A DNA stretch of 64,000 nucleotides from Pseudomonas lalucatii (lineage in GTDB: Bacteria > Pseudomonadota > Gammaproteobacteria > Pseudomonadales > Pseudomonadaceae). The stretch is from the NCBI RefSeq assembly GCF_018398425.1, contig NZ_JADPMV010000001.1:1736001-1800000 (forward strand). Direction: 5' to 3'. The notes under the pieces are model-generated. The model saw only the letters and a program-made list of their open reading frames with translations. It was not told where the DNA came from and ran no database searches. The position numbers were made by a program, and so were the translations under genes. Each line of letters begins with the position of its first letter. Within the stretch, counting starts at the first letter, position 1. This document shows, in pieces, positions 51,015 through 64,000 of the stretch.

Positions 51015-51091
51015 GGCTACATAGCTCAGTTGGTTAGAGCGCAGCATTCATAATGCTGATGTCCCAGGTTCAAGTCCCGGTGTAGCCACCA
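51015..51091 (+). tRNA. tRNA-Met (elongator, anticodon CAT)
   Basis: 77 bases, acceptor arms GGCTACA / TGTAGCC, anticodon CAT at 51049-51051, T-loop GGTTCAAGTCC, encoded CCA. The prophage begins immediately after it, so its 3' end is the probable integration target. Confidence 0.97.
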
Positions 51092-51097
51092 TATAAA

Positions 51098-51135
51098 ACA
51101 AAGGGTTAGCTTCGGCTAACCCTTTGTCATTTCTG
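51098..51135 (+). terminator. Intrinsic terminator after tRNA-Met
   Basis: Thirteen-base stem ACAAAGGGTTAGC / GCTAACCCTTTGT closing a TTCG tetraloop, followed by CATTTC. Confidence 0.8.
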
Positions 51136-51139
51136 GGGT

Positions 51140-52222: not shown

Positions 52223-53212
52223 TCAACCTGTCACGCACCCAATCTGCGCCAGTGGAGAAAACCTAAGCGCCGACTCCAGATGATCCGGCGACAGGTGCGC
52301 ATAGCGCATGGTCATGGTGATGGAGGAATGGCCCAGGATGCGCTGCAGGCCGAGGATGTCGCCGCCCGCCATCATGTAGTGACTGGCGAAGGTGTGCCGC
52401 AGGATGTGGGTCATCTGGCCGGGCGTGCGGAAACCGCATCGCTCGTAGGCGCTGCGAAACGCCGACCTGCAGGACATGAACAGTCGACCGGAGCCGGGCA
52501 TGCCGAGCTTGAGGGCTATGTCTTCGACGGCCTTGGGGATCGGCACCGAGCGCGACTGGCGGTTCTTCGTCCGGTGGAAGTGCACCTTGCCCCCGAAGAT
52601 GGCCGTCCGCCCCAGGCTTTCCGCCTCCTCCCACCGGGCACCCGTGGCCAGGCAGATCAGCGCCACCGGATAGGTGTGATTGTTCGTCGACTTGCGGCAC
52701 TCATCGAGCAGCTGGCGAACCTGCTCCAGGCTCAGAAAGGACAGCTCGATCTGATCGGTCTTGATCTGACGGATGCTGGCGAGGGGATTCTTGCCCGCCC
52801 AGGCGCCAAGGCGGATCAGCTCGGAGAACACGGCCGAGAGATAGCGTTGTTCATGGTTGACGGTGTGCGGTGAGGCTTCCTTCAAGCGCTGCTGGCGATA
52901 GCGGGCCCACGCTAACGAATCGAACTCAGATGCCTGCGGATCGCCCAGGCGCTCCACCACTGCCAGGGTCCGCGAGAGGCGGTATTTCTCATCCTTGAGC
53001 GAGCAGCCATGCAGGTCATACCAGACCTTTACCAGATCGGAGAGGCGGTCATCCAACGGCCGGCCCGTCTGGTTCAGCGTCGCGAAGAAGTCAGACTCAT
53101 AGCGCTGTGCGGCTGCCTTGGTGAGAAAGCCCTTCTTGCGGATACGGCGCCCCGTGCGGCCATTCTCATAGAAATCGGCCGTCCAGGTCTTGCCGTCCTT
53201 GCGTACCGTCAT
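52223..53212 (-). CDS. Phage integrase (tyrosine recombinase)
   Basis: A 329-residue tyrosine recombinase. The ATG at 53212 overlaps the Rep stop by 4 bases and is preferred over one five codons upstream. Catalytic residues are visible: Arg193 (GARWEEAES), Lys216 region (HRTKNRQSR), His269-x-x-Arg272 (HILRHTF), His295 (ILGHSS) and Tyr304 (MRYAHL). It would integrate the phage at the tRNA-Met gene ~1.1 kb away. Confidence 0.93.
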   Translation of the reverse strand: MTVRKDGKTWTADFYENGRTGRRIRKKGFLTKAAAQRYESDFFATLNQTGRPLDDRLSDLVKVWYDLHGCSLKDEKYRLSRTLAVVERLGDPQASEFDSLAWARYRQQRLKEASPHTVNHEQRYLSAVFSELIRLGAWAGKNPLASIRQIKTDQIELSFLSLEQVRQLLDECRKSTNNHTYPVALICLATGARWEEAESLGRTAIFGGKVHFHRTKNRQSRSVPIPKAVEDIALKLGMPGSGRLFMSCRSAFRSAYERCGFRTPGQMTHILRHTFASHYMMAGGDILGLQRILGHSSITMTMRYAHLSPDHLESALRFSPLAQIGCVTG

Positions 53213-54492
53213 ACCGCCCTGCCCCACCTGACATTACGCTCCTCGAGCAGCGCCTTGATGTGCTTGTACAGGTCGTACTCGCTCATGTCCTTGGCGGCGT
53301 AGTGGTCGCGGATGACCGGCCAGCAATCCCACTGCTGGAGGGTTTCAAATGCCTTTTTTGCGCCCACCCGCTCCCTTGCCAGTAGGCTGACGAAGTTTCC
53401 CAGGAACAGCTCCACGTTCTTCCCGGAGAAGCCCCGGCTGGTCTTGTGATAGCGCTTGTATTCGGTCTGATCGAGCAGCGAGTCAACCGGCAGATCGACC
53501 CGCACGTCATCGCGAATCAGCGTCCAGATCGGCGCGAAATAACCCGGCCGGGCCAACAACTTGAACTGCCCCAGGCCATAGCGCCACAGGCCGTCCAGAT
53601 GGGCCGAGAACGCCGCATAGGAGCGGGTGTCGATGGCTTCACCGGTCTTGGCGTCGATGGAGCCGCTGGCGAACTGCTGGATGATCGAGTGGTGATAGCG
53701 CAGCTCCACCCGCCACACGTCTTGCGCCGGGTCGTAGTTGTCCGGGTCGCCTGCGTCGAAGCTGTCGCGGCGTTTCCAGACGCTTTCCCAGTAGTCGAGC
53801 TTGTCCGTGGCGCGGGCCTGTTCGGTCTTGTTGTAGATGGCCAGTTGTATGCCACCGGCCGAACCGAACATGGAGGTTTCCCCACGTCCGTAGACGCTGC
53901 TTTTCGTAGCCCAATGGACTTCGTTGATGCCGGAGATGTCGCGGTGGGTGCGCGCCTTGCAGTGCATGCGGGCGACCAGATCGACGGGCGGCGTCCAGCC
54001 CTGCAGGTCCAACGCCAGATGGACCGCGCACTGGTTGAGCTCCAGGTGGGTCAGCACGGCGTCGGCGTAGTAGTCCAGGCGCTCTTGCAGACGCTCGGGC
54101 GAGAAGGCGTCGATGGCATGGGGCGACACCTCGATTTTCAGGTGGGGGCCGACGTTGTCGAGCTTGGCGTTGAAGTTCTTCACCAAGAGGATGATGCCCA
54201 GGTCGGCGTTCTGCAGCTTGTACTGGTAGCCCGAATCGCGCCCTACCCGTCCCGAATGCCAGCGCTGGCCGGCGAAATCGACCATGACGCCCGGCGTCTC
54301 AAACAGCGCCATGATCTCCGGACGGATCATGCCCCGGTACAGCTGCCGCACCGTATCGACGCCACAGCGCAGCAGGCGAACGCCTGACAGGTCGACGAAG
54401 CCCATATGGCCCGGATCAACGAAAAGACGACTTTTCGAATCCTCCAATCCGGTTTCCAAATCGATACGGGAGAAGTCCTTTGCTCTGGCCAT
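53209..54492 (-). CDS. Inovirus replication initiation protein (Rep)
   Basis: A 427-residue protein, the same size class as the Pf1/Pf4 Rep protein and in the same place, upstream of integrase. The region YGRGETSMFGSAGGIQLAIY and WRVELRYHHSIIQQ is typical of phage replication initiation factors (Rep_trans-type), which nick the double-stranded form to start rolling-circle replication. Confidence 0.85.
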   Translation of the reverse strand: MARAKDFSRIDLETGLEDSKSRLFVDPGHMGFVDLSGVRLLRCGVDTVRQLYRGMIRPEIMALFETPGVMVDFAGQRWHSGRVGRDSGYQYKLQNADLGIILLVKNFNAKLDNVGPHLKIEVSPHAIDAFSPERLQERLDYYADAVLTHLELNQCAVHLALDLQGWTPPVDLVARMHCKARTHRDISGINEVHWATKSSVYGRGETSMFGSAGGIQLAIYNKTEQARATDKLDYWESVWKRRDSFDAGDPDNYDPAQDVWRVELRYHHSIIQQFASGSIDAKTGEAIDTRSYAAFSAHLDGLWRYGLGQFKLLARPGYFAPIWTLIRDDVRVDLPVDSLLDQTEYKRYHKTSRGFSGKNVELFLGNFVSLLARERVGAKKAFETLQQWDCWPVIRDHYAAKDMSEYDLYKHIKALLEERNVRWGRAV

Positions 54493-54558: not shown

Positions 54559-55920
54559 TCAGCGCGCCCCGGCGCGGCCCGTGTGGCGCGCAGCGTCACC
54601 GGCTGCGCCGATACCGCTGCGCGCCCCCTCGACCGCTTGGGGGATCAGTTCTCGCACTGGATCAGGCACCGATACTCCGTCCACCGCCCGGTGGATCGAG
54701 GCGGTCAGCAACACCACCAAGTTGGTGGCGCGGAGCTTGGATGAGGTCGAGCGGAACAGGCCTCCCACCACCGGAATGTCCGACAGGAACGGGACCCGGC
54801 TGTGCGACTTGTCGATCTGTTCGGAGCGCAGCCCACCGAGCAGCACGCCCCCGCCATCGGGCAACTGCACGCGGGTCGAGAGGCGCCTTGTGTTGGTGAT
54901 GATGTCGGCGGCGCTGGTGTCGTCCGAGACGCTGGAGGCGGACTGGTTGACCTGCAGTTCGATGGCCCCGGATGGCGTGATGAAGGGGGTGACTTCCAGG
55001 GACACGCCTACATCCTGGCGCACGATGGTTTGGAACGGATCGGAAGCTGGGGTCGAACCGCTGGTGGTCTGGCCGGTGATGAAAGGCACGTTTTGGCCGA
55101 CGACGATGGAAGCGGCCTCGCGGTTGAGGGTGAGCAGCTGCGGGGTGGAGAGGATGCGGTTGTTGCCGGTTACCTTGACGGCCTGGAGGAAGGCCGAGAG
55201 CGTGGGCCCGGAGAAGGTCAGGGAGAAACCCAGGTCGGAACGGTCGGAACTGCGCAGGGTGACGCCGGCGGCATCGAGGCGCTTGCTGTCGAGGCCGACA
55301 TTTAGGCCGAGGTCTTCGAAGTCAGAATCGGCCAGTTCGGCGACCACGGCGGTGATCACCACTTGCCGACGCGGCTTATCGATTTCCGCGAGCACCTGGG
55401 CGATCACGTCGAGCTGCTTTGTGGTGGCGGTGACGATGATCGCGTTGGAGGTGGGCGACGGCGTGGCCATGACGCCGCTGGCGGATTGCTCGCTTTGCTC
55501 GTTGCGTGATTGCAGCACGTCGCGGATCGACTGATAGGCGAAGTCCGATTGCAGGTGCTGGAGTTGGAAGACCCGGGTGCGCAGGTCGGGCGACTCGGGA
55601 ATCGCCTGCGAGCTGATCAGGATGCTGCCGCCGCTGGCCGAAAAATGATAGCCGGCACTGGTCACGGCATCTTCCAGCAGGCGCTCCAGCTCGGCCTTGT
55701 TGCCGTAGGTGGCGAACACGCTGATGGGTGCCGAGCGGATATCGGAGCCGACCACCACCGGCTTATCCAGGATGTCGGCCGACCACTCGACGAAGTCCTG
55801 CAGGGTGGCGTCGTAGAGTTCGACCCGTTCGGCAGCCAGTACGGGCTGTGCGAGCAGGAAGATGGCCGCCAGCCAGGCCAGGACAGAGGGGCTGACCCCG
55901 TGTTGTTTGCGTGCGCTCAT
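54559..55920 (-). CDS. Phage secretin (pIV-like, type II/III secretion family)
   Basis: A 453-residue outer-membrane channel protein. Signal peptide (residues ~1-29, VLAAE), N-terminal N0/N1-like domains (LQDFVEWSADILDKPVVVGS; SNAIIVTATTKQLDVIAQVL) and the secretin core (ILSTPQLLTLNREAASIVVGQNVPF; VPFLSDIPVVGGLFR; LVVLLTASI). It would form the exit channel for virions. Starts 5 bases after the Zot stop, so the phage carries its own secretin in the export module. Confidence 0.9.
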   Translation of the reverse strand: MSARKQHGVSPSVLAWLAAIFLLAQPVLAAERVELYDATLQDFVEWSADILDKPVVVGSDIRSAPISVFATYGNKAELERLLEDAVTSAGYHFSASGGSILISSQAIPESPDLRTRVFQLQHLQSDFAYQSIRDVLQSRNEQSEQSASGVMATPSPTSNAIIVTATTKQLDVIAQVLAEIDKPRRQVVITAVVAELADSDFEDLGLNVGLDSKRLDAAGVTLRSSDRSDLGFSLTFSGPTLSAFLQAVKVTGNNRILSTPQLLTLNREAASIVVGQNVPFITGQTTSGSTPASDPFQTIVRQDVGVSLEVTPFITPSGAIELQVNQSASSVSDDTSAADIITNTRRLSTRVQLPDGGGVLLGGLRSEQIDKSHSRVPFLSDIPVVGGLFRSTSSKLRATNLVVLLTASIHRAVDGVSVPDPVRELIPQAVEGARSGIGAAGDAARHTGRAGAR

Positions 55921-55924
55921 GGCT

Positions 55925-57019
55925 TCACCTGTAGATCGAGAGGTAGTCGTCGCCCCGCACCAACAGGGCTTCGCGGGGGCCGCGGTCCTTCACCACCACA
56001 TCGCGGACGCTGAGGTCTTCGCTGTTGAGCCGGGCGCCATCGGCCTGGCGGAACACGTAGAAGCTTTGCCCGGACAGGCGCCCGTAGCTGGCGATACGCA
56101 GGTCGCGGAACTCGTCGGCCAGCTTGCCGGCGGTCTGTTGGCGTTCGGCCTGGGCGGTCGTGGTGACCTTGGGGGCGTTGACCAGGGCGATGCTGGCGAA
56201 CACCGGGACGCTGATGCATAGAGCACTCAGGGCGCCGAGGAAGAAGCCATTGATGACGCCGAAGCGCTTGAAGAAGATCTTGGTGGTGCGCATGTAGAAG
56301 TCCCCATCGCGCGTAGCGGGCGGCAAGGGCCGACGCCAGTAGCCGGGCGGCAGCATCGAGTAGGCGCCCTTGTCGTAGTCCTTGTTGTATTCCTGGGTGG
56401 TGTCGTAGAAGTCGTAGAACTCTTCGCCGCGGTAGAACCAGTCGTCGACCTTGGGTGAGTTGAACTTGGGGCCGTACTTGACGATGGCTTGGTGCATCTT
56501 CGGCAGCCGGCCCTTGAGCCAGCCGAGGGTGAACACCCGCAGCAGCAGGCCGAAGGGAAACGGCAGCTTCATTCGGTCCCAGCGGTTGATGTAGACGACA
56601 TGCTCGGCAATCGACTCGCGAATCTGCTTGTCGATGACGTTGACGTTCTGCACGCACAGCCACAGGTCCCAGCGGCGTTTGCGCAGGAACAGGAAGAACT
56701 TGAGCAGGTCGGTACGGCCGCCGCTGTTCCAGTCGCGGGAGTTCAGCCAGACGCCGGCCTCGTCGAGGAAGATGCCGCCGAAACGTTCTTCGTCGTAGCT
56801 GTCGTGGCCCATGCCCAGGCCGATCAGGTCGTCCGCCGAGGGCAGGTCGGGCAAGCGCACCAGACGCGAATAACGGTTGTCGCGCTGGCACAGCTTGTCC
56901 ATCTTGACGTCGATGTTCACCGCCACCCGGCGCCGCTGCTTGAGGTAGGCGAGGATGCGCATAACGACGAGTAGCGTTTTGCCGGCACCTAGCTTGCCGG
57001 TGACGATGTACACGGCCAT
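55925..57019 (-). CDS. Zot-domain ATPase (pI-like assembly protein)
   Basis: A 364-residue inner-membrane morphogenesis ATPase: Walker A GKLGAGKT (residues 8-15), Walker B GGIFLDEAGVW, and a single membrane helix near residue 250 (GFFLGALSALCISVPVFASI) followed by a periplasmic tail. It extrudes phage DNA while coat subunits are added, working with the secretin downstream. The toxin name of this family refers to a V. cholerae phage homologue; no toxin role is implied. Confidence 0.92.
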   Translation of the reverse strand: MAVYIVTGKLGAGKTLLVVMRILAYLKQRRRVAVNIDVKMDKLCQRDNRYSRLVRLPDLPSADDLIGLGMGHDSYDEERFGGIFLDEAGVWLNSRDWNSGGRTDLLKFFLFLRKRRWDLWLCVQNVNVIDKQIRESIAEHVVYINRWDRMKLPFPFGLLLRVFTLGWLKGRLPKMHQAIVKYGPKFNSPKVDDWFYRGEEFYDFYDTTQEYNKDYDKGAYSMLPPGYWRRPLPPATRDGDFYMRTTKIFFKRFGVINGFFLGALSALCISVPVFASIALVNAPKVTTTAQAERQQTAGKLADEFRDLRIASYGRLSGQSFYVFRQADGARLNSEDLSVRDVVVKDRGPREALLVRGDDYLSIYR

Positions 57020-62119: not shown

Positions 62120-62449
62120 ATGAAGCAAGCACTTATCGCCTTACTCATCCTGGCAGCGCCCGCTTTTGCAGATGAGGAAAAGCCAGTCGCTACCCAGGCG
62201 GCAGAAGCCGCCACCCCCTACGTGGAAGCCTTCAGCAAAAGCGTAAGCAGAACCCTCGCTGAGGTCATGGCCGGCGGCAAAGGCCCGATGGCCGAAGGTG
62301 CGCGCGCCAACCTCAAGATGCAGGATCAGCGTGAGCGCGAAGCCAATCGCGGCACCCGCAAGAGCATGAAGGAGTGCATCAAGCCTGGAAGCGTCATTGA
62401 CGATGACGTGAAGGAGTGCATTGAAGGACTACGCGAGAAGACGTGGTAA
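62120..62449 (+). CDS. Small exported protein in the prophage cargo
   Basis: A 109-residue protein with a signal peptide (residues 1-17, APAFA), a helical charged middle, and a C-terminal MKECIKPGSVIDDDVKECIE with two conserved cysteines. GGAG precedes the ATG. Unknown function. The last ~27 residues recur in a diverged copy immediately downstream. Confidence 0.65.
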   Translation: MKQALIALLILAAPAFADEEKPVATQAAEAATPYVEAFSKSVSRTLAEVMAGGKGPMAEGARANLKMQDQREREANRGTRKSMKECIKPGSVIDDDVKECIEGLREKTW

Positions 62450-62491
62450 CCCTACCTAGCTAAAAACCGTGGTCTGCCCCCATATATTCCC

Positions 62492-62596
62492 ATGAAGGAA
62501 TGCATCAAACCTGGGAACGCCATTGATGATGATGTGAAAGAATGTATGGAAGGAACAAAAAACAAGGCACGGCAGGAAATACTAGAATTATATTAG
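62492..62596 (+). pseudogene. Diverged partial copy of the 62120 gene 3' end
   Basis: The frame starting at 62492 reads MKECIKPGNAIDDDVKECME then a new tail ending ARQEILELY and TAG. It matches the C terminus of the preceding protein, but with more A/T-rich codons (AAA, GAA, GAT). No signal peptide or upstream part remains. Its stop lies beside the ribosome site of the large cargo gene. Confidence 0.6.
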
Positions 62597-62605
62597 GATG
62601 AAAGT

Positions 62606-64000
62606 ATGAGCAGCCCGAAAGAGTCGGAAGTATCTGAAAAACTTATAGATTATTTGATAGGGACTATTGACGGCTTTGAAATGGAAAGCCTGATATCTAG
62701 GCTGCTTGGAATAAGGCATGGAGAAGGTTTTGAGTGTCTCGGTGGGAGGAAGGATGGTGGCGCTGATGGAATGTTTGTAGGCATTTACCAACAGCGGAAC
62801 GAACACTACGTACAAATTAGCAAGGAAAGCGGAGCGGAAAAAAAGATTGAGAGAACAGTTAAGCGCTTAAGAGAGGTCGGTCGAAATCCAAAAGCGATAA
62901 CGTACTGGACGAATATTTCGATACCTACGCGAGACATTATAGAAGAAAAACTAACTGAGTCACTAAGCGTGACTGTAAGGATCAGGGAAAAACTATCTCT
63001 CGCTCAATTGATCAACGAAAATGATGATTCAAGGCGGTTATTTAGGGAGATGTTTGCAAGAGAGATTGCAGAACTTTCAAAACAAAAGGCTGCTAGCGAG
63101 GGGAAGAAGTTAGGATTCACGAGCGACCCAACAGTCTATACGTTCCTGAAGTTTGAGGTGGGTGATAGGCACAAAAGGGATAATCTTACAGAGCCGGTCG
63201 CAGATGCAATGATTTACTGGGCTCTCAGAGAGACTGACCCTGATAAAAATACACTACTGTCCAGAGGCGAACTTAAGAAGAAAATAGCAGCTGCTTTGCC
63301 CGGCGCTCAAAACATGATTATTCCAAACATAGATCATAGATTAGAGCAGTTGTGTAGGCGAGGAGCAGAGACTCCTAGGGTTCGTTATTATAGAACTCAA
63401 GATGCATATTGTTTGCCTTATGAAATGAGACTGGAGATTGCTGAAGAAAGCATTGCCGACATTGAGCTAACCGAGTTCGTAAGAAAATCGTTAGAGGATA
63501 GCGCAAGAGAACGCGGGGCAGATGGTAAAAGTAGGCTTATTGCAGATATAGCAATTTCAGTTATCTACCAACATTTCTTTGAGCAAGGGTTGGTCTTAGC
63601 CGCCTTTTTGGAGAAAAGGCTAGAGTCTATATCGTCACAAGAGCAGGTTGTTGAGACTGAATTAATGAGGTCTCTTGATGCTGAGGCAATATCTCCAAAG
63701 CTATATGGTGTTGCCCTTAATGTTCTGAGGTCGTTTTTCTATTCGCCAAGCGAACGCCAGGTTTTATTTCAGAAAAAATTAAGTCGCACCTCTCTTTTGC
63801 TGATTTCGCTCAAGCATTCACCGCAATTGCTCGAGTATTTTAATGGTATGACTGGCAAGTTTAGGCTTTTTATTGGCACTGATATAATAGTTAAAGCGCT
63901 TTCAGAGTACTACCTTGGAGGGGAGTCTAAAACCTTAACTAATCTCCTATCTGTTGCGCGAGCAGCAGGTGCGCAGTTGATATTGACCGAACCAGTCGTT
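62606..64000 (+). CDS. Large AT-rich cargo protein: REase-like N terminus plus PIN-like segment (3' end outside window)
   Basis: An uninterrupted 465-codon frame from the ATG at 62606 (AGGA site 8 bases upstream) to the end of the window. Residues 38-75 (HGEGFECLGGRKDGGADG, then YVQISK with Lys73) resemble the core of Mrr/PD-(D/E)XK-type nucleases and are followed by KIERTVKRLREVGRNPKAIT. The middle is helical. At the end, LFIGTDIIVKALSEYY (Asp426) and NLLSVARAAGAQLILTEPVV look like the start of a PIN-type nuclease domain. GC content and codon use are far lower than the phage genes, indicating separate acquisition. Place at the cargo end of a prophage suggests defence; not proven. Confidence 0.6.
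   Translation, partial: MSSPKESEVSEKLIDYLIGTIDGFEMESLISRLLGIRHGEGFECLGGRKDGGADGMFVGIYQQRNEHYVQISKESGAEKKIERTVKRLREVGRNPKAITYWTNISIPTRDIIEEKLTESLSVTVRIREKLSLAQLINENDDSRRLFREMFAREIAELSKQKAASEGKKLGFTSDPTVYTFLKFEVGDRHKRDNLTEPVADAMIYWALRETDPDKNTLLSRGELKKKIAAALPGAQNMIIPNIDHRLEQLCRRGAETPRVRYYRTQDAYCLPYEMRLEIAEESIADIELTEFVRKSLEDSARERGADGKSRLIADIAISVIYQHFFEQGLVLAAFLEKRLESISSQEQVVETELMRSLDAEAISPKLYGVALNVLRSFFYSPSERQVLFQKKLSRTSLLLISLKHSPQLLEYFNGMTGKFRLFIGTDIIVKALSEYYLGGESKTLTNLLSVARAAGAQLILTEPVV

Follow-up and report, generated by a model that had tools for sequence, protein, structure and literature searches.

A foreign gene at the accessory end of a filamentous prophage of Pseudomonas lalucatii encodes a 752-residue protein, here called REase-WH-PIN, in which a restriction-endonuclease-like domain and a PIN domain are predicted in one chain, possibly with a winged helix between them. 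The protein is probably an undescribed candidate one-protein defence system; the reading that fits best, and that can be held with some confidence, is that of a putative stand-alone anti-phage (anti-mobile-element) protein with a REase-like core, carried as prophage cargo. Its candidacy is suggested by the predicted folds, conserved sites, a stand-alone gene, defence genes at some loci, patchy distribution, foreign composition and prophage position, and precedents are offered by DS-3 (excerpts of PMC13092281) and Pf6 KKP (excerpts of PMC11341870).

The gene and its prophage

The window, the whole stretch of DNA analysed, comprises 64,000 nucleotides (bases 1736001-1800000 of contig C1, in a 4.58-Mb genome of two contigs). 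Positions are those of the window, which equal those of the host-genome locus L002 plus 50999. The REase-WH-PIN frame starts with ATG at 62606 and continues without a stop to the window end (62606..64000, +, residues 1-465). An earlier note on this DNA had called for the sequence past 64000, and this completes the gene: the host genome gives a stop at window-equivalent 64864 and a product of 752 aa (L002:11607-13865). The gene is foreign by composition, as that note had proposed of an AT-rich frame, with 43.0% GC compared with 62.3% in the prophage core. A promoter and terminator scan gave no signal above shuffled sequences.

Integration was at a tRNA-Met (51015..51091, +), whose end is overlapped by the attL copy (51046..51136, +) of a 91-bp direct repeat; the attR copy, 91% identical, lies outside the window at 65974-66064. 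The element between the repeats (~14.9 kb) encodes a tyrosine integrase (52223..53227, -; PF00589 1.7e-19, phrog_1 1.2e-71), the inovirus assembly proteins M13 protein IV-like secretin (54559-55920, -) and protein I/Zot-like (55925-57019, -; phrog_1012 / phrog_1675 assembly-gene matches 6.4e-110 / 3.5e-115 for the pair) and a repressor-like regulator of the phage switch (61481..61810, +; phrog_147 transcriptional regulator, 1.5e-24). A further inovirus gene (53209-54492, -) has no Pfam match at E ≤ 1 and matches phrog_1159 (1.1e-203), a family of unknown function. These genes and the 91-bp repeat support the original placing of REase-WH-PIN in an inovirus prophage, towards its far end, except that it is not the last gene: a SRAP-family (SOS-response-associated peptidase) gene (window-equivalent 65131-65844, L002:14132-14845, -; PF02586 4.2e-62) lies between it and attR.

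Directly upstream of REase-WH-PIN is a small ORF of 109 aa (62120..62449, +; Pfam gives only SecD-TM1, E 0.12). A 64-nt direct repeat has one copy in the 3' end of this ORF (62365..62428, +; L002:11366-11429), and a second, diverged copy (83%) between the ORF and REase-WH-PIN (62491..62554, +; L002:11492-11555) is likely to be a junction or recombination scar. The SRAP gene is flanked by a shorter direct repeat (28 nt, 89%), and the other SRAP copy in the genome (C1:1631257) is only 36% identical to the prophage one. From the 64-nt and 28-nt repeats it is inferred that REase-WH-PIN and the SRAP gene were gained at the element end by separate recombination events. SRAP was considered as a functional partner of REase-WH-PIN and set aside, the link being one of adjacency.

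The contents of the tRNA-Met site differ among four relatives (L093-L096), with integrase-like pieces beside the tRNA in three (L094, L095 and L096) and none in L093; genome scans did not find REase-WH-PIN in any of the four. The side of the tRNA on which a transporter-like gene (EamA-like by eye; L002:18390-19254) is found varies between genomes. The differing contents and the shifting position of the EamA-like gene suggest that the locus has been rearranged.

Family, predicted domains and active sites

One search gave at least 109 homologues (509-1057 aa, mostly 730-765 aa and mostly unnamed; local identity 27-94%) and, as the listing drew on 7998 scored candidates, the family may be larger. 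Since 108 of the 109 align to the 752-aa protein (24-94% identity), with key residues kept in most, the alignment indicates that the frame is not a product of chance. Family loci numbered 65 in a genome scan and three in a viral scan, and their locations include prophage, viral contig and plasmid; INPHARED phages gave no family match at E ≤ 1e-5. A tree of 61 rows comprises Pseudomonadota (28), Actinomycetota (15), Bacteroidota (6), Acidobacteriota (2), three more phyla with one row each and seven ungrouped rows, making seven phyla among the grouped rows. Distribution is patchy, the family gene being present in 1/398 genomes of the genus (the window's own), 2/198 of the family and 2/369 of the class, the window's own included in each.

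Eight Enterobacteriaceae plasmid records carry a divergent branch of the family, 24% identical over residues 50-473. Its 735-aa relative (L074:9869-12076; also L075 and L076) is found on Klebsiella, Escherichia and Citrobacter plasmids and is adjoined by a gene for a TrlF-family AAA-like ATPase in all three plasmid records inspected. A gene near-identical to this branch occurs in 5 of 5426 E. coli genomes and is always plasmid-borne.

Residues 1-152 (62606..63061, +) form a predicted PD-(D/E)XK (restriction-endonuclease-like) domain containing E27, D50, D54, Q70-x-S72 and K80. Its secondary structure in the model is H23-41, E42-44, E55-57, E67-71, H77-90 and E97-101, and the best matches in a fold search of residues 9-152 were PD-(D/E)XK enzymes, in agreement with the nuclease-like N terminus first suggested from the sequence. 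Residues about 193-272 (63182..63421, +) may be a winged helix. They are followed by a helical region to which the structure model gives no assigned fold (residues 273-415; 63422..63850, +) and by a predicted PIN domain (residues 418-648), which begins at 63857..64000 (+) in the window, extends to window-equivalent 64549 and supplies, in D426, E467, D591 and E624, the three to four acidic residues of a PIN site. The fold search returned a PIN fold for this C-terminal region, where the start of a PIN-like fold had been placed near residues 420-465. The first seven matches in a search of viral models included several named "restriction endonuclease" and one "PIN-like", all with E > 0.001. In these fold searches a family missing from the matches is not thereby excluded, and the helical region (273-415) is barely covered.

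Although the domains are of kinds already known, their combination has no name in Pfam, NCBIfam, PADLOC, PHROGs or a PDB sequence search, just as it had not been recognised as a named system before. Pfam PIN_12 (PF16289) reached 13.6 bits, below its cut-off of 32; NCBIfam gave noise matches only, no PADLOC 2023 family matched the 752-aa protein at E ≤ 1, and neither the protein nor the family profile had a match in the PDB sequence search at E ≤ 10. Searches of an open-licence paper library listed no name for the domain combination, and those for inovirus cargo and for Avs4 listed nothing about the family.

Conservation was assessed in an alignment of 109 rows (of 110 proteins, excluding P0098, a 1057-aa protein that includes a transposase domain). 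In the REase domain, where one row is gapped at the N-terminal sites, E27 is found in 108 rows, D50 in 108, D54 in 107 and Q70 in 108, so the GGRKDGGADG...YVQISK stretch singled out in the earlier note is real and conserved. Lys73, one of the residues picked there for mutation, must be rejected as the catalytic residue, being K in just 13 of 109 rows; Lys80 is K in 108. The same note had observed that QISK does not fit a strict E/Q-x-K motif and that the nuclease may be divergent, and this is borne out by the occurrence of serine (S72, 92 rows) or threonine (15 rows) in place of the motif III lysine. The motif II acid and motif III are thus present as a variant rather than in canonical form, with a lysine on the next helix, and K80 is probably a migrated catalytic lysine. 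Migration from motif III to motif IV has been proposed for DUF506, DUF790 and DUF1626, of which DUF1626 has threonine in motif III, and the pattern D...Q-x-(S/T)...K of REase-WH-PIN resembles theirs as set out in extracts of PMC1913061.

The PIN site is less uniform. D426, whose importance had been predicted, is conserved in 107 of 109 rows, as are E434 (109) and E467 (107); D591 is found in 92, and position 624 is E in 85 and D in three. Prediction and conservation together show an N-terminal PD-(D/E)XK nuclease fold with E27, D54, Q70-x-S/T and K80, and a C-terminal VapC-type PIN fold with the D426/E467/D591/E624 set; in the prophage protein both the REase and the PIN sets are whole. Across the family, the REase set E27/D50/D54/Q70/K80 is intact in 104/105 rows and broken in one, whereas the PIN triad D426/E467/D591 is intact in 89/106 ungapped rows and broken in 17, with at least three changes on the tree. 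Twelve of the 17 combine S, T or A at position 591 with Q at 624; one of the 17 is the mild change E467D.

It is mainly because of this difference that the REase domain is taken as the seat of the core activity. It also counts against the PIN domain being the effector, cleaving tRNA or mRNA in abortive infection while the REase-like domain and winged helix only sense foreign DNA: an effector should be better kept than a triad broken in 17 of 106 rows, with at least three changes, and this arrangement seems unlikely, if still a serious competitor. A modification-dependent (type IV-like) restriction enzyme, in which the winged helix reads modified bases and the REase domain cuts, with the PIN domain as a side arm, is somewhat less probable again, as the matches in its favour cover the catalytic domain alone and the winged helix is weakly assigned.

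Genomic context and proposed role

REase-WH-PIN appears to be encoded by a gene that stands alone, with no regular partner. Clustering of neighbouring proteins (≥ 70 aa, ≤ 6 kb from the family gene) revealed no partner common to many loci; the largest similarity cluster covers five loci, and a two-gene system was rejected for want of a widely shared partner. In L069 the small ORF directly before the family gene matches PerC and HTH weakly; its cluster was found in only two loci (L069 and L071).

Some family loci are defence islands. Among seven loci chosen by eye, which hence give no rate, six have PADLOC matches at E ≤ 1e-10 and one (L035) has none. The neighbours are a type II REase and MTase of the XhoI family (L007), PglX pieces on either side of the family gene (L019), PD-T4-4_A and PDC-S11 (L021), a type I R subunit (L027 and L057) and a DruM-like MTase (L029). 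In L019:6672-14177 the family gene and a 492-aa ORF separate two pieces of PglX (BREX), one matching its first half and the other its second. Scans of 231 of 256 chosen near neighbours (124 + 107; the 25 omitted were 18 from L071 and L073-L076 and seven others), from ORFs called by a simple script and so perhaps including false ones, took in most of the neighbours just named and gave PglX, PtuA, PDC-S68 and PDC-S02 families, four phage integrases in the first batch and many metabolic genes. Metabolic genes surround many of the relatives. Near genes matched 427 and 158 PADLOC families (two batches) and genes ≥ 5.5 kb away matched 226, including BREX, CRISPR and PifA (124 of 200 listed far genes, L004 to part of L044); because these counts are of families and not proteins, a numerical enrichment was discarded and no rate beside the gene is claimed.

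On balance the analysis supports the earlier note in reading the gene as a candidate new defence system. If REase-WH-PIN acts in defence, the winged helix and helical region may bind invading or abnormal DNA and the REase-like domain would cut DNA as the core activity of the family. In most members, though not in those clades that have lost its catalytic set, the PIN domain would add RNA cleavage and so arrest growth. As neither an antitoxin nor a modification gene is regularly found beside the gene, the protein would be kept inactive until infection sets in; the prophage would benefit from a host protected against rival phages. Such a widely scattered one-gene system, nameless in the databases above, would combine DNA- and RNA-nuclease folds in one chain, so that 'restriction or suicide?' could be tested with two mutant sets, and would add another kind of defence cargo to filamentous prophages, which are small. 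A bolder and rather doubtful version has one protein acting at two levels: winged-helix-guided PD-(D/E)XK cleavage of invader DNA would, in the same event, free the VapC-like PIN domain and halt translation. If true, this would be a one-gene restriction-plus-abortive-infection system in at least seven phyla, captured here by a filamentous phage.

The gene could instead serve the inovirus itself, in maintenance (addiction) or superinfection exclusion rather than broad defence, as its position in the accessory end of the prophage and the derivation of the adjoining repeat from the end of the 109-aa ORF would allow. This is improbable: there is no antitoxin match beside the gene, and when the Zot, secretin and 53209-54492 proteins were compared with the other family loci (≤ 10 kb each way, a search that detects close relatives), nothing matched at E ≤ 1e-5, which suggests that the family is not bound to inoviruses of this kind. 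A housekeeping enzyme of DNA repair or RNA processing, compatible with an unassigned hypothetical protein and with the relatives among metabolic genes, is very hard to reconcile with presence in a single genome of the genus, with prophage, viral-contig and plasmid locations and with several damaged copies, those in L056, L057, L061 and L064 each being split into two ORFs and that of G393 (L097) having one in-frame stop.

Comparison with known systems

The N-terminal nuclease of Avs4 (AVAST type 4; PDB 8dgf) and the VapC PIN ribonucleases (PDB 3zvk, 5x3t and 4chg) are among the known systems closest to the predicted folds. Avs4 is a STAND NTPase with sensor repeats, of 1534-1541 residues in the PDB chains. 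REase-WH-PIN is not a STAND protein, having no Pfam NTPase domain at E ≤ 1 and a middle part modelled as winged-helix-like and helical, and a PIN domain follows instead. Unlike VapC, its PIN domain lies within a 752-aa protein, has long insertions, comes with no VapB-like partner among the neighbours searched and has lost its triad in part of the family. A VapBC pair was likewise rejected: the upstream 109-aa ORF has no antitoxin match, the downstream gene encodes SRAP and no neighbour cluster exceeds five loci.

The Mrr_cat family (PF04471) shares the GG-DGG-D and Q-x motif with REase-WH-PIN. It matches 10 of 44 homologues at E ≤ 0.1 (best E 0.0024) and does not match the 752-aa protein at E ≤ 1; REase-WH-PIN differs in having S/T for the motif III lysine and a near-invariant K80. 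Winged-helix fusion endonucleases, which are 6mA-dependent type IV enzymes, likewise combine a winged helix and a nuclease in a single protein; the main text of the paper on them makes no use of the word PIN (PMC11037411).

DS-3, from the DefensePredictor study, is a one-protein PIN-ribonuclease defence system that has no antitoxin and requires its catalytic residues. Compared by description only, it shares with REase-WH-PIN a PIN domain in one protein and the lack of an antitoxin; its PIN domain is described as split between the N- and C-terminus, and the excerpt speaks of no REase domain, whereas one is predicted in REase-WH-PIN. The same study has 13 further validated PD-(D/E)XK systems, one of which could be a relative (PMC13092281). 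Pf6 KKP, a kinase-kinase-phosphatase, is unrelated to REase-WH-PIN as a protein, but it is an accessory anti-phage module of a filamentous prophage (PMC11341870, in part), and REase-WH-PIN, if defensive, would be placed in the same way among the accessory genes of such a prophage.
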